From Erpobdella octoculata (Eukaryota; Annelida; Clitellata; Hirudinida; Erpobdellidae), in assembly GCA_963978895.1 (NCBI GenBank), contig OZ022246.1, forward strand, positions 25,917,359-25,981,358: a stretch of DNA of 64,000 bases, in the 5' to 3' direction. The notes beneath the pieces are model-generated. The model was not told the origin of the DNA, did not search any database, and worked only from the letters and a program-made list of their open reading frames with translations. The translations under genes and the position numbers were made by a program. Positions 1,795-42,258 of the stretch are shown piece after piece. Every line of letters starts with the position of its first letter. Position 1 is the stretch's first letter.

Positions 1795-4028
1795 ATGAAA
1801 CAATTAAAAATTAATTTGATTTGGACTACGCTTATGTTTTTGTTGAGTATTCGTAATTCAGAATGTCTTTCAAAATCAACGTGCATTGACAATTTTTGTT
1901 TTTACACAAACGGTTATTCATTTTCAACGTTCTCACAAGCTCAGGAGCAATGTAGACAAAATGGATATAAATTATTAGAATTAACTGGAGAACGTGTAGG
2001 CAAAGCTTTTGAAGAAGTTTACAAGACGTGGTCTCTTGATGGTGAATTATCTGGTTATAACTTGTGGTTGAATTTAAAATCAAACACTTTTGATTGGACG
2101 TGGGTCAACGGAATAAAATACACAAGCAAGATTTACAATTAAATAAAAATTTATTTTTTATTAAAATATTAATAATAACGTAATATGTTTTTAATGAAAT
2201 TGAAATACAATAAGATGTGTATAATTTTTCTAAATTTTATGTAAATTTACTACAAAATAAAACTTTAAAAAATTCAAATAAATTATTATACATTTTTAGA
2301 AATAAATGGTGATAATTTTTTCTACACTAATGAAAATTATGCTACAATTACGTATAACTCCAGTCGAAATACATTTATCCGAGAATCCACATACCACCGA
2401 TATTTGCCTTTAATTTGTTCGTCTCCTAGTGAGTAGAAATAAGGACAGTTGAATCAAGCATTTGCTGATAAAATCTTTAATATTTTAAGCTTGTAAAAAT
2501 GAAAAGTGTCTTTCGTATTACACATCAACTCCAATGACTTGGTTTGATGCAAGATACGAGTGTTACAAAAAAGGAGAAGATTTGGCAGTTTTGAATTGGG
2601 TGACGAACTTAAATACAGATTTACCTGGACTTAAATCATACCCGGGACAAGAATTTTGGTTGGGACTTACAAGACGAGATTTCGAATGGCAAGATTCGAG
2701 TTGGTTTTATTTATTTCCACATTATTTTTTCTCGAAATTAAAATAAACAATCAGCGTACCAATGTTTGTTTTGATAACATAGATAAAGCATTAAAGTATG
2801 CTAACTGGTCTTCGGGACAACCTGCAACCGATGGTGAATGTGCAATCATATCAACATATCTGTCAAACAAATGGGTCACCTCCGCATGTTCTCCTATGAA
2901 TTTCATCATAGTCTGCATGAATGGTAGAAATGTATTTACTTTAATTATTACTTGAGTCGTTTAATAAAACTATTTCTTTTTTAGAGACAATTTTAGAATT
3001 AACGACGTTAACAACAACAGTAAAAATAACTGAAACATCATCATTTTCAAGTAAGATTTAATATCAGTAAAGGTTTAAGAAGTTAATTATTTTTAAAAAA
3101 TGTAAATAACTAGTAAATAATATTAATTAACCCTAAATAAACATATATTTTTATTTTAAACAATGTTAAACCATAATACTTGTTGTTACTTTTTAATTAA
3201 ATAAAAATGCCATAAAATTAGGCTTAGCAGATTCATCAGCAACTGCAAATGCAACTGAAAATGCAAGATCAACTACAACTACAGAAATAATACAAATTAA
3301 AAACATCAACGCTCCATCATCTGAAACCAATTCATCTAAATCTATTGCTATTGGACTTGGAGTTGGAATTCCATTGGCCGTTCTCTTTCTCATTGTTATC
3401 ATCGTTGCAGTTTATTTTGGTCGCAAAAAATCAAAAAAGTATTTTGTGTTTTTTAATAATATCAAAAGATAGTTTGCATAAAACAAAATATTTTTTTAAA
3501 AACTAATCAAAATCATTAACTTTAAATTAAACATTTTTTTGAAAAATTGTTTGGACTTGTAACATAAATGTTTTTAAAATTACTTTGCGCATTATGCTTG
3601 TTTTTTTAATATTAATAAACTTATTTTAATTTTACTTAAAACAAATTGTTTATAAAAGTTTTATTTAACAATCAAAACTGTATCACTTTTGCAGAAATAT
3701 ATTAGAAAACTCATCCAATCAGGAAAATACTTATCCAAATTCCAGTTACAATGGAACCGGACAAACGGAAATCTACGAAGAACATGAAATCTCTAACAAC
3801 ACCTCCACAAGCAAAACTGAACCAATGTATTCATCAGTTAGAACGAATCCAATAAGAGCCGCTCGCGAAAGTGATACTAATGTAGAATATATAGGAAACT
3901 TGATAAGATCTTCTGAAGGCATGACTATCAACAACGAGGATGAATATGATAGTGATGCTGGGGGAGATAATATTCCGGATCTTCAGAATGCAAGGATACC
4001 CGATTACACGAGAGTTGATAAGGATTGA
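1795..4028 (+). CDS. Dual-CTLD transmembrane receptor, subfamily A, copy 1
   Basis: Seven-exon model: 1795-2125, 2300-2428, 2490-2699, 2783-2923, 2985-3050, 3222-3438, 3695-4028, giving 475 aa. Residues 1-25 are a signal peptide. Exons 1-2 encode CTLD1 (Cys pair near CIDNFC, core WLNLKS, last Cys in LPLICSS). Exons 3-4 encode CTLD2 (WFDARYEC, FWLGLTR, KWVTSACS, IIVCM). Exon 5 is a Thr-rich stalk, exon 6 holds more stalk plus the TM helix, and exon 7 is a tail with tyrosines in EPMYSSV, VEYIGN, YPN and PDYTRV. CTLD2 lacks the canonical QPD and WND calcium/sugar motifs, so binding is probably calcium-independent, as in NK-cell-type lectins. Intron 1 starts with GC (GCAAGA) where the paralogue at 4.8 kb has GTAAGA. 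Ligand and signalling partners are unknown; the role as an immune or recognition receptor is inferred. Confidence 0.85.
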
Positions 4029-4795
4029 ATGATAAACTTATTTTTGTAATGCAATTTTTTTTAAATTGGTAACATTTAAAGATATTTTTCAGGGGTGTTC
4101 TCTTAATTCTAATAAAAAAAATTATTAAAAATGTTTTAAATTTAATTGAGATTAAATACAATGGCTTGACTGTAAAGCCAAACAAAAACCATAAATATCA
4201 ATAACTACTAAAAACTTCTAAACACAAGTAAAACCATTATAATCCATAAATTAATTTATAAATTTTGTGTAAAATAATGTTTTTGATTGTAGTTTTAATT
4301 GCAACTTTTTGGTCTTTTTTCAGCACGTTTTACTACTTCGGTCGTACACTGCTTGATTATGTCTCATCTCACAAAAATGATATCAAAGTATGAAAACCTT
4401 AAAAATTAGTATTCGAACTAATTTTTATTCAAACTTCACCTTAATATATTTATTGAAATGAAACCGTTGTCAACTTTTTTGCTTCAACAAGTAACTATGC
4501 TGATAACACCGAGCTTGTTGTCTGTACGTGTTGAAATAACACGTGTGCAAATAAAATGTACACTACTAGTAGCTATGAATAATTGAACTATTTTCAAAGC
4601 ACAGTTGTCATAACGACGGAGATGTGTGACGTTTTATGATAAATCACTTTTGTATTTGTTGCATTTGAGGACAGCACAAGCAGCCTAACCTTTTTCATTC
4701 ATAGCTGTTTTTGCTTCAAACTAGTCAATGGTTAAAGGCCATTTCAATAACAGAGATAAATGAATAGTTGGTTTTATTGAAATTCAAGCTAATTC
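4029..4795. other. Intergenic spacer with subfamily A promoter block
   Basis: No gene was seen. The part from 4622 to 4710 repeats the upstream block of the first receptor gene (GTGACG, AAATCACTT, TTGCATT, AGCCTAACCTT, TTCATAGCT) about 90-170 bases before the next start codon. Its spacing to the ATG is similar to copy 1. Confidence 0.5.
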
Positions 4796-7107
4796 ATGAT
4801 GAATTCGATGTACGCAACGTTCTTTTTAATGTTAAATATTTATTATTTAGAAAGTATTTCAAACTCTACGTGTATTGACAATTTGTGTTTTTACATGAAC
4901 GGTTATTCGTCTTTAACGTTTTCACAAGCTCAGCAGGAATGCAGACAAAACGGTAGCAAATTATTAGAATTAACTGAAGAACGTGTAGGAAAAGCTTTTG
5001 AAGAAGTTTACAATATGTGGTCTTTTGATTATAAATTATCTGGATACAACTTTTGGTTGAATTTAAAGTCAAAGACGTTTGATTGGACGTGGGTCAATGG
5101 AATAAAATACACAAGTAAGACTGACAGGGAAATACATATTAAAAATTTATTTAAAATATTGATAAAAATACTAAATGTTTATTATTTTATTTGAAAAAAG
5201 AATCAGATCTGTAAATTATTTTTTAAATTTGTGCTTTTACACTACAAATTAACGTCTCTAGGTAGCAAATTTAATTATAATTTACTTAAAGAAATGAATG
5301 ATATTGACTTTATCCATGCCAACGAATATTATGCCACCATCGCATATGACTCCAGCAATGGAAAAACGTTTCTCCGAGGATCTTCATTTGACCAATTTCT
5401 CCCTTTTATTTGCTCGTCTGATGGTAAGAAATAAAAACACTTGAGTTGTACGTTTGACTAAAAATCCGTCAATATTTCAAGATTGTGAAGATGAGAAATG
5501 TCTTTCTTTTACCACTTCAAGTTATATATCTTGGTTCGATGCAAGATACGAATGTTTCAAATTAGGGAAAGATTTGGCAGTTTTAAATTGGGTAACAAAT
5601 TCAACTCAAAGTTTGTCTAAACTTCATTTACATCCTGGGCAAAAATTTTGGACGGGACTCACAAAACAGAATTTTAAATGGCAAGATTCAAGTTTGTCTT
5701 AAATATTTGCATTTCATTCTTATTAAAAACCTAATTTTTGTCTGAAAAAATAAATGAGTAATTTTTAATTAAATAATTCAGATGTCACGCTAAAGTATAC
5801 AAACTGGGTTTTTGGACAACCTTCTAGTGATGGTGATTGTGCAATTATATCACCATATTGGTCAAACAAATGGATCACATCAAGGTGTTCTTCTGCAAAT
5901 GACGTTATTTTTTGCATGAATGGTATGAATGTTTTCTAAATTTAATAAATATTGTTTGAATATTGAACTGTTTATTAAAAATATTTATTTTTCAGACAAA
6001 AAATTAGATTTGACAACATCAAAAGCAGAAATAAGGACACAAAATATGTTTTGTTCAGGTAGGGTTAAATCTTAGTAAAAATAAAATGTAGTTGGCATGC
6101 TATTTTTTAAATGCCAATTTTTTATTTATGTTATTGGTTCATAAATAAGTCATATGTTTAATCAAACGGTTTTAATTAAGAACTCAATTAATTTCTATAG
6201 TTAAAAAGGGTATCAATAAAAATTGACATAAAACTAAAAGTTTAAAACAATAAGTTTTAATAATTCAAACAAATATTGGGATGAAATCCAAACTACTTTT
6301 AAAATTTCTTTGATTATAATAACAATTTCGTTTCAGAAAATCCACCTACAACTACAAAAACACAACTAGTTGACAGTACTAACGTATCATCAACTGATAC
6401 AAATTCAACTAATTCGCTGGCAATTGGACTAGGAGTTGGAATTCCATTGGCTTTCTTGCTTATTTCTGCTATCGTCGTGACTGTGTATTTTTGTCTCAAA
6501 AAACCAAATAGGTGTTTTACATTTTAATAATGCTATTTTATATTTTTATAATACTTTCTGTTAGATATAAACATCATTGATTTACTAATTATTAATTTGT
6601 ATTAAAACATAGAAGCAATTTTTCAAACATAAAAATGTTTGATTTTATTAATTTGTCAAGTTTTCGATTAAACTGAGTTTTATTTTTTAGTTTTGTATAT
6701 TTTACCCAGATTTTTTTTAATTCTGTTTACTGAAAAAAGTTTTCAACTTTTACAGAAAGATTTTGAATGATCCTTTAAATCAGGAAAATAATTTTGTAAA
6801 CAACTACGACGAAATCGTACAACCAGTAATTTACGATGAACCAGAAAAGGTCGAACAAATATTGACAAGCCACATCGAACCAATGTATTCAACAGTTGGA
6901 ATCAATCCAATAAAAACTGCTTTCGAAAATGGTGCTAATACAGAAAACACAGAAAGTTCATTAAAATATGCTGAAATAAATATCAACAATAACAACAACA
7001 CTTATGAATCAGCAGATGTTGGTGAGGTTGTTGAAATGAAAATTACAGATATTCAGAATTCAACAATGCCGGAATATGCAACGATTGATAAAAAATCAAA
7101 AAAATAA
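4796..7107 (+). CDS. Dual-CTLD transmembrane receptor with ITIM-like tail, subfamily A, copy 2
   Basis: Exons: 4796-5114, 5262-5423, 5482-5691, 5782-5922, 5996-6058, 6337-6511, 6756-7107, giving 473 aa. It has the same plan as the upstream neighbour: signal peptide, CTLD1 (exons 1-2), CTLD2 (exons 3-4), stalk, TM (IGLGVGIPLAFLL region) and a 117-residue tail. CTLD2 has WVFGQPSSDGDC and KWITSRCS, so the lectin calcium motifs are incomplete. The tail has LKYAEI, which fits the ITIM consensus (I/V/L/S)xYxx(L/V/I) exactly, plus EPMYSTV, PEYATI, NYDEI and VIYDEP. An inhibitory, SH2-phosphatase-recruiting role follows from the motif but is inferred. The start could be any of three in-frame ATGs (4796, 4799, 4808); the first is given. 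The intron after exon 1 has a normal GTAAGA donor. Confidence 0.87.
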
Positions 7108-8106: not shown

Positions 8107-9310
8107 ATGAACATGTTGAAATAAATGTTAATTTTACTGTTGAATATTTCATATTTTTAATGTTCAGTTAAATATGCTTGTAGTGAAGATTGGTGTTTTT
8201 ACACTAATGGATTTTCCAGTTTCCTCGTTGACAGAAGCTCAACTTCAATGTCGGCAAAATGGAAGCAAGTTGGTGGAACTATCCGATGAAAAAGTTAAAA
8301 AAGTGTTTGGATGGGTATTGAGGATGAAGATTTTGCTAATTTTTATTTGATTTGGTTAAATTTAAAATTTATTAACGTTGATTGGACATGGGTCAACGGA
8401 ATAAAATACAGGGGTGAGCCTAAAATTTATTATAAGTTAAATTAATTTTTAATTGCAGGTATTTTAATTTTTTTCAAATACGTTCTTCTTAAATTACCGT
8501 TTTTATAAATGGAATTAAAAGTCTAGAAACTTACAATTTATTTGTTAATTTGTTTACTTGTAACATCGCGGTAAGACCAGTCAAATATCAGAGTTCTTCT
8601 TTGGTCTATTTTTCAAGACATAACCTTAACCCGGCCCAAAAATCGACAAATGAAGCAAGAAGAAACTTACCAAAATTACCGATTTATGCTGTTGCAAAAA
8701 TTAAGTGTAATTAATGTGTAAGAGATATCTTGCCTAGATTTGATATTGGTAGATGTGTGACTTATCTATTACGTTGATTTCAAGTTGGCTAGCTGCTCGT
8801 TACTGATAACATTTTTTTATCAACCCACTCAAACTCATTAAAAGTTGAAACTCATAAATCCAGACTGACCCAAATCATAGGCAATTCTGTAGTATAACCA
8901 TAAGTGTAGATAATTTAATGAGTTTTACAGGAACTGATCATTTTCAATTTTTTGAGGGTTTCGGAAGTTATTTCGTTATCAAATATGATTCCGAGAGTAA
9001 CAAAACAGTTGTTCGGGAAATTTCAAATTTATTTAATTTGCCCTTCATCTGTTCGTCTAATGGTAAAAAATAGATATAGTTGATTTAAACGTTTGGTTAT
9101 AAAATTTTCAATATTTTAAGGTTGCAAGATTAAACGTGAGTTTTTTACATTTCTCATTTTTAAAAATATAAGTTGGTATAATGGAATAATAGAATAATTC
9201 AAAAACAAATTTAGCAGTTTTAAATTAGGCGAACAATTGAACAATAGCTTCACCCGAACTTCAATTGCATCCGGAACAAGAAGTTTGGTTTGGGCAAAAT
9301 TTGACATAAA
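8107..9310 (+). pseudogene. Decayed subfamily B dual-CTLD receptor
   Basis: The first exon (8107 to about 8411) aligns with the genes at 27.9 and 32.8 kb. It has two in-frame stops in the signal-peptide region and a one-base insertion in the segment after the FYTNGF motif that shifts the CTLD1 frame. Its donor (GGTGAG) survives. Exon 2 (about 8932-9060) is intact in sequence, with an ICSSN end and a GTAAAA donor. Exon 3 (from about 9122) is collapsed; only scraps matching the TLAVLNWV and PEQE segments remain. No exon 4, stalk, TM or tail was found. No protein product is expected. Sequence is closer to subfamily B than to its immediate neighbours, so this copy was displaced from its relatives by later duplications. 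Confidence 0.85.
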
Positions 9311-9340
9311 GCTTACTTACTTCTTAAAAAAATTATATAT

Positions 9341-9395
9341 GCAGCTGATAAACTGGTAGAAAATCCATTCATGAGCTTGTATTCATGTAACAAAG
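9341..9395 (+). promoter_or_regulatory. Conserved upstream block of subfamily C receptor
   Basis: The block contains CAGCTGATAA, then GTAGAAAAT, CATTCAT and TTGTATT. Related blocks lie upstream of the genes at 18.5 kb (about 18380-18415, TTCATTCAAAAATAG) and 23.6 kb (23475-23525). A stand-alone copy is at 22366-22410. A further shared motif, ACAGGTGCACTAA, sits just before the start codons at 9419-9431 and about 23560. Probably promoter sequence; the factor is unknown. Confidence 0.45.
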
Positions 9396-9471
9396 CGTTG
9401 CTTAAATTCCGTATTAAACAGGTGCACTAAGTTAAATCGCATTAGATTGTTGTCCAACTTTAATTTTGAAA

Positions 9472-12400
9472 ATGTTTGTTAAATATACATTTTTACTGAT
9501 TTTCTGTTTTGTGTTGAAATGTTCTTCATGGAACGAATGTTTGAATGGAGTTTGTTTTTATTCCGAGGAAACTAATGCTTCGAGTTTAGTAGAAGCTCAA
9601 GATCTGTGCCGTAGAAATGGAAGCAAGTTGTTGGAACTGATAGACGAAGAAACTCAAAATACCTTTGAAAGTGTTGTAAACAAATGGATCGATTCTTCAC
9701 GAGCACAAGGAATGATGATTGCTTACGTCTGGTTGAATTTGAAAGCGGAGAAGTTTAACTGGACTTGGGTGACAGGAAAGATATATGATAGTTTGTATAT
9801 CAACAGTGTATTTTTTTACTTTTTGATATTCTGAAATAACGTTTTCTATATAAATTTTAATTACGATGCTATAATAATTCATAATTTAGGTTTTGAGTAA
9901 CAAACAATCCATTAATTTGTATCTAGATTTATTATTTTTTTTTTTAAAAAGATGTTTTATCTTATTTTTACAAAGGTCCAATACCCGTACAAGGCAGTAT
10001 CTACTATTACTATGGATTATTAAAATACACGTCTGCCAGCAAAACAATCTTGGTTCATTCGCTCTCTCCGGAAAATCCGGCTTTATTTATTTGCGCCAAT
10101 GAAAGTTTGTTGAGTTAAATAAACTTGTTATAGATATATATCACTGAATATCTATTTAGTATCAAACGTATTTTTTTAATTTCAGTTTTATCTTTATACT
10201 ATGATCCGAGAAAATTTAAATTTTTGTCAGTCTTTTTATTATCAGCAGCCAAATAAATAACCAATTAGCAGATACTAAATTATAATGCTATAGATTTGAT
10301 AAGCTAATTTATTATATGTTGATGTTGTATTTAATTAATTTTGGCTACTTGAGCCCATAATCAAATTTATAACTGTCCGTTGAAGTAATTTTAAAAGTGA
10401 TTGATTGTATCCTAAAACTACAATGCTGAAAATAGTAATTTGAAACTTCTTGTTATTTTAACTGCGTTTGTAACATATAACTTATTTGTTTAAACAAACT
10501 TTTTAAAACAAATATATATTTTTTCAAAACTACTTCATTGAAGATTGTAAAAATGCATCCTGTCTTACCTTAATTACCGATTCGATGCAAAACTGGTTCA
10601 AAGCAAGATACGAATGTACGAAAATGGGTAAAGATCTGGCCGTCTTGGATTGGGTTGGAAACTACATCGAGGATATTCCTCAATTGATCCAGAACGCTGA
10701 CACAGATTTTTGGATTGGTCTTTATAGACAAGAACATCGATGGCAAGATTTAAGTATGTTTTGATTATTATATCATTATTTAAGTTTTTTATATAAGGGA
10801 TATAAATGCTACTATGCGTCTCTACCTAAATCTTTCAAAAACGGAGCTTATATTGTTTCACCGTAGAATCCACAATACCTGTTTTCTGGAAAACTACAGT
10901 TTACTTTTTAGTGCTGAGGCTGAATATATTCTTAGCCTTGAAAGTTTTTTTAATAATTTACTTTGTATATCCTCAGTATCGTCCATGTTTTTCCACATTT
11001 GCCGTATTTGACCGATAAAATCATTTCTGGATCATTCCTGCTCCAAGATTCTTATCCATGTTTTTGTCATCTCAAGACTAGATTAATGAAATTATGACTG
11101 GCTTCCCCACTTCAACTCTACATCCCGCTATCTGTCGCCCGCCTGGTGATTGGTGCATCAACCCGTGATCATATTTTTTTGTTAGGTTACACTGGCTTCC
11201 TATTTTCCTCAGTGTATTTTAAAAACTACTAATGTTTATTCATAATATTTATCATAACAACTCCCCAACTTACCTACTTGATTTCATCAATCTCTGTTCG
11301 GACTGCCCGGGAAATTGCAGTCTCCATTCATCATTTGTTCATGACTTAATTGTTCCATGCGTTTGCCATAATAATTTAAGAAGAGCTTTTTCTGTTGCAG
11401 CTTCGATCGCCTCCAACAGTTTTCCATCTTTCATTAGAGAATCAGAAACAACCGATTTTAAAACTCTAAAAACTCATTTATTGTCGTAAACTTTAACCTT
11501 ATATTATTTCTTTATGTTATTACATTTGGTGCAAAACTCGTTTTGTTTTTAGTAAATTAATAAATAAATAAATTAGTAAATAAAATTATAAATAAAAATT
11601 TATAATTGGACTAATTTTGAAAAAATTGTTATCACTAAATATAGTTGTATTTATTAGTTAAAAAAAAGTTATTTTCTTGACTCTCAGAAACTCCTATGAA
11701 GTACATCAACTGGGCATACCCTCCTTCAATAACTTTAACTTCTGAATGCGCTAGAGCAATAGTAGGAGTTTACCGATGGGTGGTTTCCGAGTGTACTTAC
11801 AAAAATTCATATACTATTTGCATGAAAGGTATTTGAAAACAATTTTGTGGTAACATTTTTAACAGTTTTTAACTCGTTTTTATATTTTAAAAGCTGATTC
11901 AATTTCAACTGTAGCGAGTGTTTCAACGCCCTACGTTTTGTCATTATTTACACCAGGTATAATTTTTTTTATTCAAAAACAAATCAAAAATTTTTTAAAC
12001 TGGCAAAACTATTAATAACATAATTGTTTTCAGAATAAAGTTTGAGCACTTTTGGAATTAACAGTTCAAGCTTTAACGTAGCGTTAATCGTTAGACTTAT
12101 AAGCCACAATTCACTTTATCCAACTTTTACTTAGTCGTGGGACCATTTAGACATAAAACCAGAAACAGCCATTTATGGGCACCTACCAACACCCCATGCA
12201 GACGCTGGTAACGCCGGCGGGATTCGAACCGCAGACTTTCAGGTTCACAGGCAAATGCCTTAACGCTATACCACCATTGAGTAATTATTTTACAATGCTG
12301 TTTTTTTTTTTATTTTACTTGCTTATAATTAATTTGTAGTTTATCATAAAAATTGTTTTTTAATAAACATTTTTATTATTTAATTTGAGAAAAAGTACAT

Positions 12401-14342
12401 GACTTATTCTCTAATGTAATTATATCAGAACTATTTTTTAATTTTAATTTTAGTAAAAATTTTATCAAATTAGTTTCAGGAAATTTATCTACAAGTACAG
12501 CAACAACAACTACACCATCAACGACAACAACAGGTAATTTGTTTTTATTTGATTATTATGTAGTTGGCTTAAGGCGAGTCTCTTCATAGCCGCAAACACA
12601 AACAACAACAACATTGGAAACCACGTTGACTTTTTCATCTTGTCCTCCTATCAAGTTTCTAGCACTCTTATATATCAGTAAGTCACGTGACCCACGATGA
12701 CGTTTGAAAAAACCAATCAATTCAAAATACAGCATACCACGTGATTGCACCATGATAATATATTCATCCTGACAAAGAGCGCTGGCCAGAACCAAGACAC
12801 AGCCAAATATTAATTACAATTCAAATCATCCAATAATATTCAAATAAAGTACCAAGTGGTCAAACAATCATCCTTACATCAGCATATTCAAATATAGTTC
12901 GTCCGCCCACATACTAGATATCGCGTTAAAAACAGAATATGTTGGCATGCACGTTACGTCACAAGACGTGGAGATGACATACGTCATCATCATATGCAAC
13001 ACTATTATCTGGTGTGTCTATAAATGATACAAGTACAATTCTAAACACTGGTAATTGAGATTTTAATTAATACGCGGTTGGAGCCGCAGCGGATGTCGAT
13101 CTTGGTGGTAGTAGTAATTATTCAAACGAGAACATTGAAGACTGAAGTGCAATGTTTAAATTTTATTTCGAATTTGTGAAATTAATCTTGTTTTGCAATT
13201 GTTTTTAAAGTTTTATATTTTAAAGGTTTGTCTTGGCTTGAAAAAGTAATAATTGGAAGTTCTGTTGCTGGAGGAAGTTTTGTTTTGGCAGCAATTATTG
13301 CCAGTTTAGTTATGCTTTTTAAAAAGTTCAGGTCAGCAAAGAATTATTATTTTTTAGTCATTTTAAGGTTTTTAAACAAAAGAAAAATTTTTTGTTTATT
13401 AAAATGTTTTTTTCACAATTTAATTTTTTAAATATGTTTACTCATTTTTTGCTGCTTTTTAAAATCACTTTTGAAATTTTTGAATTAGGTTTCACTTGAT
13501 TAAAACACCTGATAGGAAAAACATTTAACGTTAAAAACTTAGATGTTTCTTAAATTAAATACTTAATAGTTTAGTATACTAAAATATTTAAAAAATTAAA
13601 ATTGTAAATTTGAATGCTGAATTGAAAAACAAAATTTTTGTTTAGAAACACCAAGAAAGATGAGTATAAAGAAACTTATGTAATCCCTGAAAGAAATTAT
13701 CAAGAACGATCTTTGTACGATGAAATAAACAAAGAAGAAACTTCGATTGAACATAATCAAAATGCAAATGATTCTTTTCATCAAGCTGGAAAAATAGATA
13801 ATACTCTAATAACTAATGAACAAGGTAAAGAAACATATACTACTCTGATAACCTATGAACAAGTTGAAAAAATAGATAATACTCTAATAACTAATGAACA
13901 AGGTAAGGGAACATATACCTCTCTGATAACCTATGAACAAACTGGAGAAATAGATAATACTCTAATAACTAATGAACAAAGTAAAGGAACGTATAATACT
14001 CTGATAACGTATGAACAAGTTGGAGAAACATATGCTAAACTATTAACTGATGAACAAACTGGAAGAACATATACTACTCAGATAACTGATAAACAGGCTG
14101 TTGAAACAAATGTTAGTCCAATAACTTATGAACAAGCTGAACCAAAATATGTCAATCCGCTAACTTATGAACAAGCTGAACCAAAATATGTCAATCCGCT
14201 AACTTATGAACAAGCTGAACCAAAATATGTCAATCCGCTAACTGATGAACAGATTAGAAATAATAAAATCGAAGCTTCAATAGATGAAAATAGCGTTTAT
14301 GGTAATAAAAAAACTGCTGAATTTGTCCTAAAACGACATTGA
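9472..14342 (+). CDS. Dual-CTLD receptor with repeat-expanded tyrosine tail, subfamily C, copy 1
   Basis: Eight exons: 9472-9790, 9976-10104, 10544-10753, 11688-11828, 11894-11956, 12480-12533, 13226-13331, 13646-14342, giving 572 aa. Signal peptide (MFVKYTFLLIFCFVLKCSSW), CTLD1, CTLD2 (ending YTICMK), two Thr/Ser-rich stalk exons, and a TM helix in exon 7 followed by KKFR. The start at 9472 matches the paralogue at 23613. The tail is about 232 residues. It opens with SLYDEI, an exact ITIM consensus, followed by repeated units of the type TYTTLITYEQ (YTTL, YTSL, YNTL, YAKL). These alternate with units where Tyr is replaced by Asn (DNTLITNEQ), then three identical 13-residue units with YVNPL. 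Introns 3, 5 and 6 are enlarged by a LINE end, a SINE and an unidentified insert. Multivalent SH2-protein docking is a reasonable inference, but not shown. Confidence 0.85.
10810..11600 (+). mobile_element. 3' end of a CR1/L2-like LINE inside an intron
   Basis: Frame-shifted pieces resemble the C-terminal part of LINE ORF2: LSKTELILF near 10828, a LHWLP-like segment near 11190, a YLLDFI segment and a closing FxSFIRES...FKTLKTHLL block at about 11400-11487. It ends in an A- and T-rich tail with short repeats of TAAATAAA type near 11555-11590. It is inserted in intron 3 of the receptor gene that starts at 9.5 kb, in the same orientation, and is too decayed to be mobile. Confidence 0.7.
12105..12285 (-). 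mobile_element. tRNA-derived SINE copy 2, in an intron
   Basis: On the minus strand it has TGGTATAGCGTTAAGG (box A-like) and GGTTCGAATCCCG (box B) with the same non-tRNA body as the copy at 1264-1476. It lies in intron 5 of the 9.5-kb receptor gene, antisense to the gene. Confidence 0.7.
12540..13200. other. Intron segment with unlike base composition
   Basis: About 600 bases of this intron are noticeably richer in G and C than the surrounding DNA, including CACGTGACCCACGATGACG and a second CACGTG at about 12739. No paralogue has a matching segment in the corresponding intron, so it is probably inserted DNA. I could not assign it to a transposon family and found no clear terminal repeats. 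An open minus-strand frame at 12556-12795 resembles nothing I recognise. Confidence 0.4.
13790..14260 (+). repeat. Coding tandem repeat in the receptor tail
   Basis: The reading frame consists of degenerate units of about 39-42 bases built on ITxEQ. In the 5' half, Tyr-type and Asn-type units alternate (TAT versus AAT codons). From 14123 to 14239 there are three perfect 39-bp copies, each encoding a 13-residue TYEQAEPKYVNPL unit. Perfect recent copies beside diverged older ones show ongoing repeat-number change without frame loss. Confidence 0.85.
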
Positions 14343-23612: not shown

Positions 23613-26099
<2,487 letters not shown>

Positions 26100-27940: not shown

Positions 27941-30640
27941 ATGAACGTTTTATGGAAAAGCTTAATTTTACTATTAAATATTTCCTGTTTCCAATGTTCA
28001 GTTAAATATACGTGTAGAAAAGGTTTGTGTTTTTACACGAATGGTTTTACAGTTTCTTCGTTGACAGAAGCTCAACTTCAATGTCGGCAAAATAGAAGCA
28101 AATTATTGGAACTAGCTGATGAAAAAGTTGAAAAGGTGTTTGATGATATTTACAAAACGTGGACTAATGGAGATGATGTGTTTTCTGGTTTTTACATTTG
28201 GTTGAATTTACAATCGTCAATTACTGCTGGTTGGAATTGGGTCACTGGATTAAATTACAATGGTAAGTTAAACTTTTGTTTTCATTGAATTAAATTTTAT
28301 AGTAAAAACTTCGAATTTGAAAAAGTTTTGATTGAAAACAAATAATTTTATTTAAAGATATATTTAATGTTGAATTTACCAACAAAAACGAAAATTATTC
28401 CATTATTTCGTACGACTCCGGCAATGGAAAATTTTTTTTCCGAGGATCCTCATTAAACCGAGAATTGCTTTTCATCTGCTCTTCTGACGGTAAAAAAACA
28501 AAACTGCTTGGTTAAATTTAAACTATTAATCATTCTTATTTTTTAAGGATGTACAAATTCAACTTGTGTTTCTTTCCACACTTCAACCTCAATGAATTGG
28601 TTTGCTGCAAACTACGAATGTTTTAAAATGGGAAAAACTCTGGCAGTTTTAAATTGGGTAACTAATTTTAACAAAGAGTTACCCGAATTTCAATTACATC
28701 CTGAACAAGAGTTTTGGTTAGGACTCACAAGAAGAATATTCAAATGGCAAGATTCAAGTTAGTTTTAATTGTTGCTCCCTGATTTAAATAAAGGGTATAT
28801 TTATTATTTTTTGTTTAAACTAGTTACGGCACTAACGTATGTTAATTGGCTTTCTGGACAACCTTCGACTGATGATTGTGTTGTTGTATCAAAATTCACG
28901 TCATATCAATGGATTACATCAAAATGCTCTGATGTGAATTACGTTGTTATTTGCATGAGTAGTATGGACTTTACTCTTAATTTGATTTATTCAATTATTA
29001 AAAATAACTCGTTTATTAATTTAGACACATCTTCAAACAAAACCTCAGAAAAATATATTTTAAAAATAGACTAAATCAAAATGTTTTTATAAAATAAAAT
29101 TTTTATTTGCTTGAAATATGTAATAATAACATTTTTTTATATTTATTTATTTAAAAAAACTTGTGAGCATTATTTAGATACATCAAGAAACAAAACTCTA
29201 GATTCAACAACTTCAATGATAAAGAATCCAGTCTCAACAGGTTTTTATAAAAAAAATTAGGAATTATTTGGAAATAATAACTAAAGGCTTTGAAATCGTA
29301 ATATTATACTGTTTAGACACGACTTGTTAAAAATATTGTAAAATAAGATTGATTGCTTGACATTTCTGAAAGTTTCTGCCTAGAAAATAATTTAAAATAA
29401 ATGCAAGTTTACCTAAGTTAACATTTGTATTAATTTAAACCATATAATTTATTTTGATATTATTATTATTTTTTCCAGAATTTTATAATTCAAAACTATG
29501 CGAAGATTGTTTGAGTTTGCCATCGAATCACGATGTGGGACTTGGAATTGGACTTTCACTATCAATTTTACTTAATATAGGACTACTTATTGGGATTTAT
29601 TTTCTATGGAAAAAAACTAAAATGTATTAAATAAATGAATTTATATTATTTTTAAATATTTATTAATTATTTATCAAACTTAAAAAAATTATTTCAAAAT
29701 TTTTGTTATTACTAGAGATGCACCGATACCATAAATATGGCCAATACCTATACCTATAACGATACTCATATGGCCGATGTCGATGCCGATACTGATACTT
29801 TTCAATATTTTATTATTTATTTGTTACTGTTTAAGTAAAAAAATCACAATTTCGTGATAATATTTTATTGAAATAATTTAATCGAATTCAAATAATAGTT
29901 ACTTCATAGTTGAAATTTAAAGTTAAATATTCTTAAATTATGGTGCAGGAACATCAGGCTTTCACTCATATTGGGAGAGAGCCTGTTTTTCTTGGGATTT
30001 TGACATTTTTTTATCTTTTTTAAATTTTTCACTTTAGGATAAAGCTATTAATTAATTTACTATTTTTATCAAACTATTCACGTTTATATACTCTGCTATT
30101 ACGCAATCATCAACCAAAATTACACAATCATTAACCAATATTACGCAACATTAGGTAATTCTGCGCAATACAAGCATTCTGCGCACCTTTAATTTAATTT
30201 ATTGAACATTATTTATTTAATTTATTAAACATTATCAATTCATTTTCTTTGTTTGTAAATAAAGTTTTTTACTTAAAATCGTTGTTGTTATGTTAAAACT
30301 TTTAATAGAAATAAGTAAATAGTCAAAAGTATCGGTATCGGCCAATGACCATCAACATTTTACCAGGCCGATACCGATAACTAAAAAAGGCCGATACTGC
30401 CGAAACGGATACTATCAGTGCATCTCTAGTTATTACATAAATATAATCATAAATATAAGTTACAATATTTTAAAAAATGCACAATAAAAAATGTAATTTT
30501 TGTTTTGCAGTACTGGTAAATTAAATACAAAAGCTATTTCTGGCAAAACTGAAGAAAACACAGTTGTATATGAAGGCATTAATCAAAATCCTGCTTCCTT
30601 GGAACAGCAAATTTACACACAGTTGTCAGATGATCCATAA
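27941..30640 (+). CDS. Dual-CTLD receptor with ITAM-like tail, subfamily B, copy 1
   Basis: Exons: 27941-28262, 28358-28489, 28548-28757, 28824-28961, 29178-29240, 29479-29623, 30511-30640, giving 379 aa. It has a signal peptide (MNVLWKSLILLLNISCFQCS), CTLD1 (TCRKGLCFYTNG to LLFICSSD), CTLD2 (STCVSFHT, EFWLGLTRR, WLSGQPSTDDC, QWITSKCS, VVICMS), a short stalk, a TM helix and a 42-residue tail. The tail has VVYEGI and IYTQL, an arrangement YxxI-x11-YxxL that fits a spaced ITAM; VVYEGI alone also fits an ITIM. Activating signalling through SH2-kinases is inferred. The last intron contains a 716-bp hAT element. Without splicing at 29624 the frame would stop after KMY. An alternative terminal exon at 29025-29074 would give a soluble product. 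Confidence 0.84.
29025..29074 (+). CDS. Possible alternative terminal exon giving a secreted form
   Basis: An acceptor (TTAATTTAG) leads to NTSSNKTSEK...KID and a TAA, with AATAAA about 17 bases later (29090-29096). It is the direct counterpart of the stalk exon of the 32.8-kb gene (33840-33917), but here it has a stop instead of a donor. A second stalk exon at 29178 can be used instead to reach the TM exon. Using 29025-29074 would end the protein before the membrane helix. Whether it is used is unknown. Confidence 0.45.
29713..30428. mobile_element. Non-autonomous hAT element in a receptor intron
   Basis: The terminal inverted repeats are TAGAGATGCACCGATA at the left and its near-complement ending TGCATCTCTA at the right. 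A perfect 8-bp target duplication GTTATTAC flanks it (29705-29712 and 30429-30436). Subterminal DNA has repeated CGATACC/GGTATCGG units. No transposase frame is present. The 8-bp duplication and the TIR type fit hAT transposons. It sits in the last intron of the 27.9-kb gene. Confidence 0.9.
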
Positions 30641-32225: not shown

Positions 32226-32755
32226 GTTAATATAAAAAATTTGTCACTTTTGACATGGAATCAATAGTCTCAATAATATGCTTATATTGGTCTAGTGAGC
32301 ATATGTTAAGTACTAATTTCAGTCGTTTGAAGTATGTGAATATTTTTGTCCAAAGCATTTATTTATAAGTTTACTTATAACCCAATCAAATGAAAGAGAA
32401 TTTATTACACTGAACAAATTATTGTTTTTTTGTTGATTTGTTTATTTGAATAAAATAAAATTAAAATTAAATTCATTAAAGTAGGTCATTACAATTATTT
32501 TTATATCATGAAGGTGAACAAAAAGTAGGCAGCGCACATGAATTTCAACGTTTATTTTTAATATAATTTATTTATAGCTGTTACATAAGCATTGACATTT
32601 GCAGACAAAACAAGCTGCTTCTTTCATTACTAGTTTAATTCATAGCTAGTTGTATTAAAAAATGATTTAAATAAACTAGTTAAGGCTTCTTTGTTGTACA
32701 TACATAACATGAAATTTTAGAATATCTTGCATTAATAAAAACTTATTTATTTAAA
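32226..32755 (+). promoter_or_regulatory. Upstream region of the 32.8-kb receptor
   Basis: The part at about 32596-32660 shares motifs with the subfamily A promoters: CATTGACATTTGCAGACA, AAGCTGCTT and AATTCATAGCTAGTT (compare TTATTCATAGCTAGTTTT at 1711). It sits 95-160 bases before the start codon. The rest of the stretch shows nothing recognisable. Confidence 0.45.
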
Positions 32756-34952
32756 ATGAATGTTTTGTGGAAAACGTTAATTTTGTTGTTGAATATTTCT
32801 TGTTTCCAATGTTCAGTTAAATATGCGTTTAGAGAAAATTTGTGTTTTTACACGACCGGTGTTTCAGCTTCATCGTTGTCAGATGCTCAACTTCAATGTC
32901 AGCGAAATGGAAGCAAACTATTGGAACTAGCTGATGAAAGAGTAGGAAAAATGTTTGATAATATTTACAAAACGTGGACTAATGGAGATGATGAGTTTTC
33001 TAGATTTTACGTTTGGTTGAACTTAAAATCGTCAGTTACAGTTGATTGGAATTGGGTCACTGGATTAAAATACAATGGTGAGTTAAACTTTTGTTTGTAT
33101 TGAATTATATTTTATAGTAAAACTTCGAATTTAAAAAAGTTTTGATTGAAAACAAATAAATTTATTTAAAGGGATAAATAATATTGAATTTACCAACACA
33201 AACGAAAATTATTCCATTATTTCGTACGATTCCGGCAACGGAAAATTTTATTTCCGAGGAACCTCATTCAACCGAAATTTGGCTTTCATCTGCTCTTCTA
33301 ACGGTAAGAAAATAAAACTGCTTGGTTAAATTTGAACTAATAATCATTTTTATTTTTTAAGAATGTGAAAATTCAACTTGTGTTTCTTTCCACACTTCAA
33401 CCTCATTGAATTGGTTTGCTGCAAACTACGAATGTTTTAAAATGGGAAAAAATCTTGCAGTTTTAAATTGGGTAACTAACTTTACCAAAGATTTACCTGA
33501 ACTTCAATCACATCCGAAACAAGAGTTTTGGTTGGGACTCACAAGAAGAATATTCAAATGGCAAGATTCATGTTAGTATCAATTGTTGCTCCCTGATTTA
33601 AATAAAGGGTATATTTATTATTTTTTTGTTTAAACTAGTTACGGCACTAACGTATGATAATTGGTTTTCGGGACAACCTACGACTGATGATTGTGTTATT
33701 TTATCAACATTCGCGTCATATCAATGGATTACATCAAAATGCTCTGATCAAAATCACATTGTTATTTGCATGAGTAGTATGGACTTTACTCTTAATTTGA
33801 TTCATTCAATTATTAAAAATAACTCGTTTATTAATTTAGACACATCTTCAGACAAAACCTCAGAAACGTCAACACCAGTAATCGAAATATTAGATAGTCA
33901 TACACTGCTATTGTCTGGTGAGTTAATTAATTATTATGAAGTAAAAAAACTACTAATGTTAAGAAAAATTAATTTGCTCTAAATATTTTTAATTTATTTT
34001 GCATTTTTGTTTGTCATTTTGTAACTATTTAAAATTAATTTTATTTGAATTTTCAAGTCAGAAATGACAAAAAACTAGTAATTTAAGCACAACATTTAAA
34101 TAACAAAAATGCTGTGAACTGTTAAAATTAAATGAATTATTTTATCAGCTTTTAAGTATGATGAAATTCTGTTAAAATGATTTTTAATGTTTCTATTGCT
34201 CATAAGTAATTAAAATTTTGTTACTGTTTTTAAGATGTAATATTTTTGATAATCTTAGATACAGCTTTCACTGTTAGTTCTCCTTCCAAACAAACTGGAA
34301 AACTTTCGTCAACAGCCACAAATCCTTCGTCACAATTTCTTCCCATTGGGTTGGGCGTTGGAATTCCACTTTTAATATTGCTTATTATTGCAATAATTGC
34401 AGGAATTTGTCTTATCCGGAAAAAGTCAAAAAGGTATTTGAAACATAAAATATTTTACTTATTAAACTTTTACAAGTTATTCAATAGAAAAAAATTCAGT
34501 TTATTATTTGAATCGAAAATGATCAAAGTAATTTTTCATTGTATTTAAAACAATTATTTGTTGTATACTCATAAAAGTATTGTTTTTACAGAACAAATTC
34601 CGATTCCTTAAGAAATTTTGCTAAAAGTTTTGTTGAAACTGACAACGACCAAATAAGACAACATGTTATCTACGATGAACCAGAATTCATCATCAACAAC
34701 AACAACAACAGCATGTCAAACAATATTAAATCATTATATGCTCCAGTGGTAAGCAATCAATCAAAAATGGCTAACGAAAATGATGAATTTGATTCAAGGA
34801 AAAATATAAATTCAATGAAGTATGCTGATTTAAATCTTCCTGGTGAGCCTTGCTATGAAGACTTCAGTCAACTTAAAGTTCCGGCTACTTCAGACGCATC
34901 TATGCCGGAATATGCGACAATTGATAAAAATAGAAATAGAAATAAATCTTAA
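32756..34952 (+). CDS. Dual-CTLD receptor with ITIM-like tail, subfamily B, copy 2
   Basis: Exons: 32756-33077, 33172-33303, 33362-33571, 33639-33776, 33840-33917, 34259-34433, 34592-34952, giving 471 aa. It has a signal peptide, CTLD1 (KYAFRENLCFYTTG to LAFICSSN), CTLD2 (ENSTCVSFHT, WFSGQPTTDDC, QWITSKCS, IVICMS), a Ser/Thr stalk, a TM helix (IGLGVGIPLLILLIIAII) and a 120-residue tail. The first Cys of CTLD1, present in the 27.9-kb paralogue (TCRKGLC), is Phe here. The tail has SLYAPV (exact ITIM consensus), MKYADL, PEYATI and VIYDEP, and its end (MPEYATIDK) matches the subfamily A tail at 7.1 kb. It therefore pairs a subfamily B ectodomain with an A-like tail, while its closest relative carries an ITAM-like tail. 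An inhibitory role is inferred. Confidence 0.87.
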
Positions 34953-37171: not shown

Positions 37172-39326
37172 ATGATATCAAAGTTTTATCCATTTCTTGT
37201 TTTGGTGAATCTTCTTCGTGCGTACGAATATGAAAGTTTTTGTGGCGATGGAGTTTGCTTTTATTTTAATGAAACAAAATCAGATAGTTTGCTGAGTGCT
37301 CAAAACGTTTGTAGAAAAAATAATAGAAAACTACTCGAAATTAAAAACGAAGTAATTCAAATTTTAGTTTCATCTGCAATCACTAATTGGATAAATGATA
37401 CTAAAAAATTGAGTTTTCGTGGCCCGTTTTGGCTGAATCTCAAAGCTGTAACTGATACTTGGAAATGGGTTGACGGAACAGTTTACTCTAGTCAGTTTTT
37501 AAATGTATCATTTTTTACTCTGGTTTTTATTCATGCCTTTTTAGATGTTCCAAAATAACTTGAGCCAATATCATCTCTGGCAAGAATGTGAAAAGATGTA
37601 ATCGCTACACGAAACTAACCTATAACAAATAATTTTTTCAATATTCATTTATCATGCAATATTTAAATGATAAGTGCAGTTTATCCACACAATCTTTGCA
37701 TCAAAACTCCCTGCCGGCAACCAAAGTTTTGTTTTTTTACAACTGAACAGAACCTTTTATTTTATGAATTTAAAGTAATAAATTTAAAACAGTTAAAAAA
37801 TAAACCGAATTGATTGTACGTATTGCAATGCAACTTATTACTAGTATTTGTACTATTATTTTTCTAAAAAATTACATTCGCTGAAACATTGATTGGTTTC
37901 AATTTTTTTTGCATAAAAGGTTCGAACAATCTGTCAACGGAATCCAACCAATTATTTGCTTATGTTAAAATTAAGAACAAAGAACTTTCATTTAAACAAG
38001 CTAATAGCAATTACGGCCCTGATTATTATCTGTTCAAAACAAGGTATGTCAGCTATGAAAAACAAGCATTAAAACAGTTAATGTAAATGGGATCTGGTTT
38101 TTTTATATCGAACTTATTTGCATGGATTTTAGATTGCAAAAACAGTTCGTGCTTAAAAAGTTTTTACGGTCCTAAAACATCTTGGTACGACGCTAGGAGA
38201 AATTGCAAGTCTATAGGTCAAGATTTATCTAGTTTGAGTTGGATAAAAAACGCCGATGATCTACCAGGCTCTCAGATGTCAAGTAAATCTTGGATCGGGT
38301 TGACACGAGAAAATTACTATTGGCAAGATTCAGGTGAGTTCAATAATTGCAATGACAAAATTTAGCTCTTCAAAAACTAGGCTAACTTGACAAATTATAG
38401 AATTTCTTGTTGTTGTTGTTTTGTTTTTTCTAATTATTTTATACTCAACTCAAATTGGTAATTAATTATTTAAATTTTTAAATGTTTTTAAAGTGTTAAT
38501 TTTTTATTACAACTTTATAATATTGTTTAAAAAATAATCAGGTACATTTGCCGAATATAACAGGTGGGGAAGAGGTTACGTGGACAAATTTGACTGTGCA
38601 GTTATGTTAATCACTTTAGAAGAAAATTGGCAAACGGTCGAATGTAATGGTTCATATTTCTATGTGATTTGCATGACTGGTATAAATAAATTTATAAAAA
38701 TTTTATTTAGAATTATATTTATAATTGTTTTTTATGTTTAGCGCAAATAAATAAATAACTCATTAAATATATACATTAGATTGAAAACAAAAATATTACG
38801 CTTTTTAAATCTGTTTTTTATAGAAAATTCAACCAAAAGTCCCCTTAATTCGTTTAGCACAACCATGTTTGTTTTTGGGACCATATCAGCTGTTGCAGTT
38901 ATCATAGTAATATACAACGTCATTAAAAAGTAATTGATTATAATAATGATTTTTGTTTTCTAACAATTTTATATTTTAAAAACAACAACATATTTATTTA
39001 GGAAATGTTCAACGTCTCAAATTCCTATTCGAACCATTTTAAGTCAAAATGGGGAAGTTCAACTGGAACACGGCTATGAAAATCTAGCTAAGGGTACCAA
39101 CCATGATGTGGTTACCCAGAATTCCCAGGATGATTATACTACAGATGATTTTAATCACTCACCTATCGATTGTACACCAGATTACGTAATTGCCATAAAT
39201 GAAAATCTGGATCTCTCGCAAAGCACCACCGCCAGTCAAAATTATACAAATTTACAAACCTCTACCGACGGATCCTACGTTTGCTCTTACGCCGGTCTTG
39301 CGCAATATGAAAATTTAGAAAGTTGA
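37172..39326 (+). CDS. Dual-CTLD receptor with multi-YxxL tail, subfamily D
   Basis: Preferred exons: 37172-37480, 37920-38043, 38133-38333, 38542-38679, 38824-38929, 39002-39326, giving 400 aa. It has a signal peptide, CTLD1 (SFCGDGVCFYFNE, FWLNLKAV), CTLD2 (NSSCLKSFYG, SWIGLTREN, FDCAVML, VICMT), almost no stalk, a TM helix and a 109-residue tail. The tail tyrosines are in GYENL, NYTNL, SYAGL and QYENL; YENL also contains the YxN Grb2-type site, and the last two lie close together. The exon 1-2 junction is uncertain. The expected phase-1 donor at 37491 puts exon 2 out of frame with exon 3. A donor at 37481 (GTTTAC) keeps everything in frame and restores the last CTLD1 Cys (LIIICSK). It is the most divergent complete dual-CTLD copy. 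Confidence 0.78.
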
Positions 39327-40443
39327 AAGAGAGAGAAACAAAGATGTCTTTAAATAAATTGGATTAAATTTTTAAAAAACGTTCGATTTGGTTTGATTTG
39401 ATTTTTTAATTTTAAGTGATTTTTCAAACAATTAAATGTTGATCATTTAATTTTGAATATTGTGTACACTGATTAGTAATAACTGTCTTGTTTGTTAATC
39501 ACAGTATACTGAAATTAAATTGGTCATAGTTAAATCGCTGTTTTATACCTAGAAAATAAATCCTAATGAGTTTAAGTCAGCAGACTAGCGTGATGGGTCA
39601 ATTATGCTCTGCGAAAGCCCAAAAGTGTGCCTATCAGGATCTCTGAGGTTCATGTGCAATTATATATGTATTTTGTGATTTCTTCAAACAGTCTTGTTAG
39701 CAAAATGCTGCTTCAGAGTCACAATTTCAAAACAGATGGACCATTTTGTTTTTTCAGCACAATATAAAAAATAATGGTTCTCCAGTACCCCCATATCCAG
39801 TAATATCACTAAAGTAGATACGGTTACTATTAATAGCAATGCAAAATGGTTGTGCAAAAATAAAATTAATGCATAAAGTTAATGTAAATTTAGTTCAACT
39901 TGATCTTTTAAAATTTCATTTTAATACTTTTTACAATTACTTAAGCCAACGATTATATTTATATTATATTTACCTAGCTGTGTTAATTTTATCTGGTTTC
40001 AGTCCTAGTAAATAATTTTAAAACTAAAACAATAATATAACGCAACGGGTTAATACATTACATAACATTATTTTCACCTGGTTCAATAAAAATATAAAAA
40101 AATATTTTACTTCCAGTGATGCAATACCTGCAAGTTAAAAATAGACCTCATAGCAAACGTTTTAATTGACGCCGCAAAGTCGTGATCTGTTAATATTAAA
40201 ACTCAAATTGACTTTCACCAGCATCCTCTTTCACTTTCTGAACAACAGCAGCAGATAGTAGCAGAAAAACTGTTTTTTATTTTTAGCTTAGCCATCATCA
40301 ATTAATTTTTTAAAAGATTATTATTCATTAATAGTCTTTTGCTTCTTCAATTTTGTTTTGGAAGTTAAACTGCTCATACTTGCAGTATCTTAATATTTTT
40401 TCATAAATTTATTTTTGTTTTAAATTTTTTTAACAACTAAATC
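39327..40443. other. AT-rich intergenic DNA
   Basis: Nothing recognisable was found apart from AT-rich sequence. Confidence 0.5.
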
Positions 40444-42258
40444 ATGACAGGATGTTTAGATTTTGAATCAAAAATCTTATTTGGATGTTGCTGCATCCTC
40501 TTATGCGTTTCAAACGCTTTCCAATCATCAGAGTCGTGTATACACAATAAATGCTTCGATGCCAATACGATAAAGAAAAGCTTGTCAGATGCTCAAACGA
40601 TTTGTACAAATGAATTAAGCATAAACTCAAAAATAAAAATCTCACAATCAAAACAGTTGTTTAATTTGAGTGTCTTGTTTTTCTACAGTTATTACAGGAA
40701 TAGAAATAACTGTATTTTGCTTAACGGCATTACAGAAACTGGTGAGTGTTTTTATAAATGTTTTGTTTAAAAAATATATTTTTACTGAAAATCTTCAAAA
40801 AAATACTTTTTTGTTCAATAAAATTTCAGGATGCAATTGTATCAAAAATAAAACAGCCTACAAAGTTAATAATAAGATTTGCAATGTCACTTGTGTCACA
40901 GGTAAATTTTAATTTTATCATTATTTACTACTACAATTATTATTATTATTTAATTATTCTTGTAAGTCTAACTTTAAATTATCAAAATGATGATTTTATT
41001 TCTCAACGATAGAGACATCAATGGCTAGAAGCCGTCGACAAAGCAATACAGATAAAAAGTCATCGAGCAAAACATTATCATCTAAGCCAGGCTTCTCAAA
41101 TACGACGACAGAATCGTCTGACGTTCACAAATTAGATTCATTGGTTACGCCTACGCCAATGACATTTTCCCTATTTGACCCGAAAAACAGGCCCATCTTA
41201 ATTGGAATGGCTGTAATGTTGCTCGTCTCTATAATTACTGCTTGCTTCATCTATTTCAGAAAGAGTAATGGGTAATTTTAATTTTAATTTTAAAGTTTAT
41301 AAAAATTAGTTTTGCTTAACTAAAAATTGTCTTTTATTAGATTTTTATGAAATGTATATAATAAAAAATTTGAATAGATTTGATATACTGAAATTATTTT
41401 CTGACAATTACCGATTACAAATTTTCACTAAAAAAACATTAAAATCTGTTAAAACAATTGTCTTCAGAGATTTTCCTCCACTTCCACAACGCTTAGAACA
41501 CCAGCTTCAGGCAAACGGAACTGTTATGGAAAATTACTACTCAGACAGGTACGTAGTTAATTGTTTTTATAATGCCGCCACATCATGAAAGTTTTATAAA
41601 TTCACTGCATCCTCGTGAAAAGACTTATATTCTGTTTTCTATTCACTATTTAAAAGTTCCGATTTGTATATGTATGTGACAATAACTAGGACAATAGTAG
41701 GCGTCTTTTTATACATACTTCTTGAGGTTAAAGATTCCCCCTCCTCTCCTCATTTAAGTTTTTTGTTTAAAAGATTTTTAGCAGAAGATTTGTATAACTA
41801 AAAACCAAAAATCAAAAATTTGTTAGAACATTAAATCATATAACATTGTTTTTTTAACCATTAAAAATTTAACAGAGTTTTTTAGTTTTTCATCTTAGGT
41901 TGAATACATTGCTTCAATAATCAATAAAATGCATCTAACGCGTTGTACTAAAACTGAAAACGTAGCTTAAAATTTCACTACACCTCTCTGTCAGGTTCAC
42001 AAACTATGAGCTGAAATAAAAAAAAATGAAAACCTTTTGCACAGGAAAAACTTAAAAGTTCCGCCAACCCCAACCGATCAGGAGCCACCACAGTCCAACG
42101 AGAACCAAGAGGGGCTGGAAGATCCTGAACCAACAGCGGGTACTGTGTATGCTTCGGTGGTAACAAATGACTATGAAAACGCCGGCTTCAGAAATCAGGT
42201 ACAAATTGAGTACGTCGATTTGACGTTTGTCAAGAACGTGGCTCCAGAATATGTTTAG
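40444..42258 (+). CDS. Divergent single-pass receptor with ITIM and Pro-rich tail
   Basis: Exons: 40444-40741, 40830-40901, 41013-41271, 41468-41548, 42045-42258, giving 307 aa. Residues up to about 26 form a signal peptide. The ectodomain starts like CTLD1 of its neighbours (SSESCIHNKCFDANT, then SLSDAQTIC) but lacks the WLNLK and WVNG core. It is followed by a small Cys-rich exon (GCNCIKNK, CNVTCVT). A Ser/Thr stalk and a TM helix (ILIGMAVMLLVSIITACFIY) follow. The tail has FPPLPQR (SH3-type), TVYASV, DYENAGF and IEYVDL, the last an exact ITIM. Intron phases (1,1,2,2) resemble the array genes, so it is a relative that lost CTLD2 and most of CTLD1. The last exon is GC-richer than the others. 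Function inferred: inhibitory or adaptor-recruiting receptor. Confidence 0.75.

Follow-up and report, generated by a model that had tools for sequence, protein, structure and literature searches.

Paired activating and inhibitory receptors are chiefly known from vertebrates, and allorecognition receptors whose tails resemble immunoreceptor tyrosine-based inhibitory or activation motifs (ITIMs and ITAMs, respectively) from tunicates and cnidarians. The mannose receptor family, a further point of reference, joins a cysteine-rich domain (CysR) and FN2 to 8-10 C-type lectin-like domains (CTLDs). A stretch of 64,000 nucleotides from the annelid Erpobdella octoculata (GenBank assembly GCA_963978895.1, contig OZ022246.1; C10:25917359-25981358), which was analysed over its full length and is called the window in the following, carries a tandem array of genes for predicted type I membrane receptors with two CTLDs. 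As judged from the genome sequence, these genes and their upstream relatives probably encode paired activating and inhibitory innate receptors that are natural killer (NK)-like in logic and evolved separately in a protostome. The logic is the known one of vertebrate paired receptors, the NK complex, fester/FcoR and Alr, and what appears to be new is the annelid two-CTLD type I paired-receptor anatomy.

In the vertebrate KIR, LILR, PILR and DCIR/DCAR systems, as far as covered by the accessible part of PMC3533184, clustered genes likewise combine similar ectodomains with unlike signalling parts, one partner having an ITIM tail. However, activating vertebrate partners usually rely on a charged transmembrane (TM) residue and the DAP12 adaptor, whereas the annelid ITAM-like motif lies in the receptor's own tail, and the annelid genes differ further in being CTLD type I genes of a protostome. 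In the mammalian NK complex and Dectin clusters, too, CTLD receptor genes lie in tandem, their products having ITIM or (hem)ITAM tails and no canonical sugar site, but these are single-CTLD type II proteins, to which the window genes, being of type I and having two CTLDs, do not belong. The mannose receptor family (LY75, PLA2R, MRC1) shares the type I orientation and contains the nearest solved CTLDs, but the annelid genes have two CTLDs, ITIM- or ITAM-like tails and a tandem arrangement, and neither an FN2 nor a cysteine-rich domain was seen in them, which places them outside this family as well. Draper of Drosophila is a single gene coding for an EGF-repeat engulfment receptor, whereas the annelid tail types reside on separate genes. 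Draper is nevertheless alike in that it provides, according to the available text of PMC8092387, ITAM-to-Shark and, via an alternative isoform, ITIM-to-Corkscrew signalling in a protostome. Botryllus fester/FcoR and Hydractinia Alr are, in the accessible sections of PMC12065747, likewise clustered invertebrate receptors of type I, and their tails carry ITIM, hemITAM or core YxxI/L/V motifs, but their ectodomains are of the Ig/sushi type, in contrast to the CTLD ectodomains of the annelid genes. A limited literature search yielded no described family joining type I orientation and two CTLDs to a tandem arrangement in an annelid and to ITIM/ITAM-like partners with matched ectodomains, and no homologue was found in GTDB contigs and a set of 5.8 billion proteins (gene 5 as query; 0 of 1046 candidates scored), sets that seem to be mainly prokaryotic or metagenomic and say little on animals.

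The pairing is most evident in gene 6 (27941..30640, + strand) and gene 7 (32756..34952, + strand), which share an ectodomain tract (27928..29051 and 32743..33866, respectively, both on the + strand) of 90.4% identity over 1125 bp including introns. The tract begins immediately upstream of the ATG, extends as far as the stalk and is bounded on both sides: in 60-bp steps, identity amounts to 82-100% inside it but to 42-63% outside on either side, as compared to 41-63% in an unrelated control. The two ectodomains are 79% identical in amino acids, while the tails differ in class, being short and ITAM-like in gene 6 (YEGI-x11-YTQL) but multi-ITIM-like in gene 7 (VIYDEPE, the strict ITIM SLYAPV, MKYADL and PEYATI; 34592 and 34613 are both possible tail acceptors). 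About 40 kb away, the genes at 25905345 and 25907817 (loci outside the window are named by their position on C10) are 87.9% identical in DNA over 1118 bp and have ectodomains that are 83% identical in amino acids and unrelated tails; their similarity stops at the CTLD2 exon, whereas upstream about 120 bp retain weak similarity (83% and 72%); identity falls to 67% in one stretch at intron 3. When a shared block of 250 bp or more with at least 83% identity is taken to define a recent pair, five such pairs are found among 43 CTLD loci in 244 kb (180 kb upstream plus the window, read with exon profiles). Of these, four (905/907, 945/950, 834/837 and 866/884) share the ectodomain side only, the open reading frames (ORFs) 3' of 834 (NTYAEI, EQYQEI) being unlike those 3' of 837 (SLYTVI, VEYLNI). 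On the level of predicted proteins, genes 6 and 7 and like pairs agree in anatomy with the definition of paired receptors given in the accessible part of PMC3533184, near-identical ectodomains with unlike tails having been found in two pairs in detail and in four of the five recent pairs by DNA.

Faster evolution of the tails as the source of their unlikeness could be ruled out, since only 13 of 218 intron sites within the tract of genes 6 and 7 are different while the flanks lie at background. With so few intron differences the lost downstream similarity is not mere divergence, and recombination or gene conversion is required.

With respect to the tails, 42 of the loci have a CTLD second-half exon, of which two without a donor and five without a TM reading were left out; after four incoherent loci (25747915, 25757613, 25892066 and 25916355) had been dropped by hand, 31 tails remained, three of them replaced by hand readings, and these were compared with 2000 shuffles. 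Among their 2805 residues are 137 tyrosines. YxxΦ was observed 64 times (23.3 expected), strict ITIM hexamers 24 times (6.0 expected), and a YxxL/I-x6-12-YxxL/I arrangement in 9 of the 31 tails (0.5 expected), with none of the 2000 shuffles reaching any of these three values; the motif excess is real, but since related tails are not independent, the shuffles overstate its significance and do not give its exact strength. The ITIM motif [ILVS]xYxx[ILV] is present in 15 of the 31 tails and in four of the eight window genes, where it may serve SHP recruitment. By alignment, genes 1, 2 and 7 of the window have a multi-tyrosine tail in common with 25898753 and 25907817 upstream. A short tail of the YEGI-x11-YTQL/YTPL type is shared by gene 6, its counterpart at 25905345 and an orphan ITAM-like tail ORF (26982..27125, + strand; VYGGI-x11-VYKLL type). 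The latter lies 3' of gene 5 with no in-frame join to it, and is 47% identical over 32 amino acids to the 25905345 tail. Gene 6 and the gene at 25905345 are 71% identical in amino acids in their tails, as compared to 42% in their ectodomains, and the gene 6 tail exon (30511..30640, + strand) has 76% DNA identity over 139 bp to its counterpart. Pairs that share an ectodomain but have unlike tails, together with motif counts exceeding those of the shuffles, strengthen the analogy to NK-type lectin clusters that a sequence-only reading of this DNA had put forward. A different kind of tail is predicted at C10:25840990 on the - strand, with many (V)EYANKNSG-type repeats, a unit which we take to be a YxN motif of the Grb2-SH2-like kind.

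As to possible signalling partners, the genome contains 88 SH2 exon matches and three SHP-type tandem-SH2 loci, more than the one of fly and the two of human. The SHP2-type locus at C5:33.548 Mb has PTPN11 as its best solved match (E 2.9e-75, exons joined by hand); the other two are the locus at C2:27.186 Mb (E 6.7e-45), where a start of the phosphatase domain is also seen, and that at C2:46.081 Mb (E 5.7e-46). In the mechanism proposed here, the multi-tyrosine ITIM-like tails would, once phosphorylated, recruit SHP-type phosphatases and give an inhibitory output, the short ITAM-like YxxI-x11-YxxL tails would recruit a tandem-SH2 kinase and give an activating output, and near-identical ectodomains on unlike tails in neighbouring genes would form the paired receptors. 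Gene conversion or recombination at exon borders of compatible phase might keep the ectodomains alike or bring them together with new tails. Immune or allorecognition use, and likewise the self/non-self or microbe sensing suggested by the sequence-only reading, would be a hypothetical function of such receptors. A more far-reaching idea, to be taken as tentative, is that of an independent NK-complex-like system in which gene conversion matches ITIM- and ITAM-tailed partners for balanced recognition in annelid coelomocytes, possibly including allorecognition.

The nature of the ectodomains bears on what such receptors might bind. When tested against PF00059, CTLD2 scored above the cut-off in all three genes tested (31.3-41.5 bits) and CTLD1 in three of six (cut-off 22.6; the other three lie just below, at 20.7, 21.5 and 22.5), so that the CTLD fold proposed for both halves was matched by the profile. 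Two whole proteins reached 49.3 and 56.3 bits, each with two matched stretches, and no Pfam family besides PF00059 exceeded the cut-off in these two. Among solved structures, the CTLD2 profile has its closest matches in LY75, PLA2R and mannose receptor CTLDs (multi-domain chains sum several matches), and the CTLD1 profile in PLA2R. The EPN/QPD motif was found in none of the 42 CTLD second-half exons of the 244 kb, and WND in one, at its N-terminal start rather than at the binding site. A Ca-dependent, sugar-binding lectin acting via the classical site was rejected on these grounds, and since EPN/QPD is missing from the CTLD2 exons, classical sugars are less likely ligands than proteins or lipids.

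Several observations weigh against activating and inhibitory pairing. The immunoreceptor tyrosine-based switch motif (TxYxxV/I/L) is not enriched in the 31 tails, with 0 observed and 2.2 expected (the TVYASV of a doubtful ORF at 42 kb lies outside this set), paralogous tails are not independent samples, and one of the five recent pairs, 748/765, also shares its 3' part. The ITAM-like spacer of gene 6 and 25905345 has a length of 11, as compared to 6-8 in the classical motif, and the gene 6-type tail fits an ITIM hexamer as well (VVYEGI), so that the sign of the short tail's signal is a guess. In addition, two of the eight window genes have no tail tyrosine, and no Syk/Shark-type kinase turned up, albeit in analyses of which none was aimed at such a kinase. 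Finally, YxxΦ is also an endocytic sorting motif. This double role speaks for an explanation by which the locus would have arisen by ordinary expansion, within the lineage, of pattern-recognition or endocytic receptors with CTLDs, the tails being YxxΦ sorting signals and their differences being due to drift; the nearest solved CTLDs belong to endocytic proteins of the mannose receptor family, and large C-type lectin repertoires are usual in invertebrates and vary widely among annelids, according to the accessible part of PMC10140915. However, the excess concerns strict ITIMs too, ITAM-type spacing occurs in nine of the 31 tails, unlike tails recur on shared ectodomains, and the missing EPN/QPD makes sugar uptake via the usual site unlikely, so that we consider this explanation unlikely, though not far-fetched.

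A clearly lower probability is given to an allorecognition complex like Hydractinia Alr or Botryllus fester/FcoR that would serve annelid graft rejection or self-tolerance; to our knowledge, no receptor has been identified for annelid graft rejection. Clustered type I receptors with ITIM/ITAM-like tails are what is described for the Alr and fester systems in the available portion of PMC12065747, and annelids reject allografts, as stated in the accessible part of PMC2248247, but the annelid genes, read from a single assembly, are unrelated in sequence to Alr and fester, both of them non-CTLD proteins according to the former source. Loci of this kind, such as Alr and fuhc, are marked by high polymorphism tied to fusion or rejection. 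Mis-joined haplotypes might also mimic mosaics of ectodomains and tails, and the frame problem of gene 8 (see below) could be read as a trace of such an assembly or model artefact; yet the tracts are 10-12% diverged, the flanks are unlike both up- and downstream and the pattern recurs in four pairs, which renders an artefact very improbable. If the genes do encode paired activating and inhibitory receptors, a CTLD version in a protostome would show that the pairing of receptors, the homogenisation of ectodomains and the switching of tails arise repeatedly in evolution; the cluster would supply concrete genes with which annelid recognition can be tested, as well as a natural experiment on the exchange of signalling tails beneath a constant ectodomain.

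Concerning selection, seven comparisons of the ratio of nonsynonymous to synonymous substitution rates (dN/dS) were made, of which the gene 1/gene 2 comparison was discarded because of a wrong exon end; the 25905345 model used there carried a misplaced acceptor. In the six usable comparisons dN/dS ranged from 0.23 to 0.63, which indicates that the CTLD receptor genes are working genes under net constraint; all six values being below 1, no positive or diversifying selection was seen.

The gene models were derived from translation of the window and spliced alignment of one template gene. As the sequence-only reading had claimed, an open spliced chain could be assembled for each of the eight genes; they lie on the + strand between 1.8 and 39.3 kb and have 6-8 exons and 334-556 residues in the final models. 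Their plan comprises a signal peptide, CTLD1, CTLD2, a Thr/Ser-rich stalk, one TM segment and a tail, and by eye and hydropathy each of the eight models has a hydrophobic start and one hydrophobic TM segment before basic residues, as in type I topology. Of the 46 introns, 44 are GT-AG and one is GC-AG (gene 1, donor at 2126), and the remaining one, in gene 8 after the exon end at 38043 given by the aligner, has a GT donor. Apart from an exception in gene 8, every junction from CTLD1 up to the TM exon is in phase 1, and the junction from TM to tail is in phase 2 in all six window genes having a tail exon.

Gene 1 (1795..4028, + strand) has its GC-AG intron in first position, a CTLD2 of 41.5 bits and a tail with PMYSSV and DYTRV, and gene 2 (4799..7107, + strand) is a dual-CTLD gene with the tail motifs IYDEPE, PMYSTV, LKYAEI (a strict ITIM) and PEYATI. 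The predicted pseudogene was recovered at 8128..9294 (+ strand), with stops, lost exons and a first exon that is 74% identical in DNA to that of gene 7. Gene 3 (9472..14342, + strand; dual CTLD) has a long tail, for which the acceptors 13646 and 13694 are both possible, and from 13646 to 14342 it reads as repeated ITYEQ/ITNEQ units with YTTL, YTSL, YNTL, YAKL and YVNP, so that it seems to have grown by internal tandem duplication. Genes 4 (18496..21209) and 5 (23613..26099), both on the + strand with dual CTLD and TM, have short tails free of tyrosine; YxxΦ is present in the tails of the other six, and the claim of diverse, separately encoded tyrosine tails consequently holds for six of eight. 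The last intron of gene 5 contains a pure (AAT)n run of about 300 bp (25620-25920) directly before the TM exon.

Gene 8 (37172..39326, + strand; 408 residues) is a divergent dual-CTLD gene with a CTLD2 of 31.3 bits and a tail with GYENL, NYTNL, YAGL and QYENL. Its sole open path uses a shifted donor at 37504, making the first junction phase 0, and its second CTLD1 exon (37920-38043) shows an apparent frameshift on the homology reading, its frame being doubtful; the shared exon plan, found in all eight genes as to domain order, is to this extent qualified. At 40441..42258 (+ strand), three ORFs in a putative exon chain make up a possible divergent relative: a CTLD-like one at the N-terminal end, one for the TM segment (40994-41272) and one for a tail in which TVYASV and IEYVDL occur. 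A 70-residue piece of this relative matched no Pfam family.

The array itself is real, but its delimitation to 1.8-42.3 kb proved too narrow, as it continues upstream and includes relatives on the opposite strand. The 43 loci of the 244 kb each have a first-half CTLD exon at E<1e-12, for which reason the array is not due to chance; 15 dual-CTLD loci lie on the + strand, and the 28 loci of the - strand have in some cases dual and in some a single recognised CTLD, long Thr/Ser (mucin) stalks or EGF-like exons. An exon-wise scan of the assembly (386 Mb, 94 contigs) with PF00059, whose counts are lower bounds, gave at least 21 matches, with eight between C10:25.626 and 25.946 Mb, reaching 0.29 Mb upstream of the window, and four at 24.40-24.42 Mb. 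The window is the 3' edge of a tandemly expanded CTLD receptor cluster on chromosome 10. A gene at C10:25902401-25903800 has an ectodomain 81% identical to that of gene 5, but no TM segment was found within the 1.5 kb separating it from the gene that follows, and it is perhaps truncated or secreted. Between 25744 and 25766 kb on the - strand of C10, CTLD loci are followed downstream by EGF-like exons, and two of them are 91% identical over 3.5 kb.

Long AT, CT/GA and trinucleotide microsatellites are abundant in the right half of the window, which also contains, at 43923-45600 on the + strand, exons of a membrane protein that is presumably TIMMDC1-like, although Pfam did not confirm this (no family above cut-off for two pieces tested), and, at 52000-63100 on the - strand, exons of a Ser/Thr kinase (PF00069, 90.9 bits with two exons joined by hand), which we take to be CaM-kinase-I-like. 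The kinase exon ending in GTPGYV near 56.8 kb runs directly into a GQFGYV-like minisatellite at 56.47-56.76 kb.

Elsewhere in the assembly, contig C94 (19,123 bp, several kb of which read N) is mitochondrial and indicates an annelid by its genetic code and gene order, with 10 TGA codons inside the COX1 match, six AGA/AGG codons at expected serine positions and at least 26 tRNA candidates (ARAGORN). Its genes, named by recognition, are arranged in the order F-E-P-T-ND4L-ND4-C-M-V-L-A-S-L-ND1-I-K-ND3-S-ND2-COX1-N-COX2-D-Y-G-COX3-Q-ND6-CYTB-ATP6, which presumably is the annelid ground pattern.

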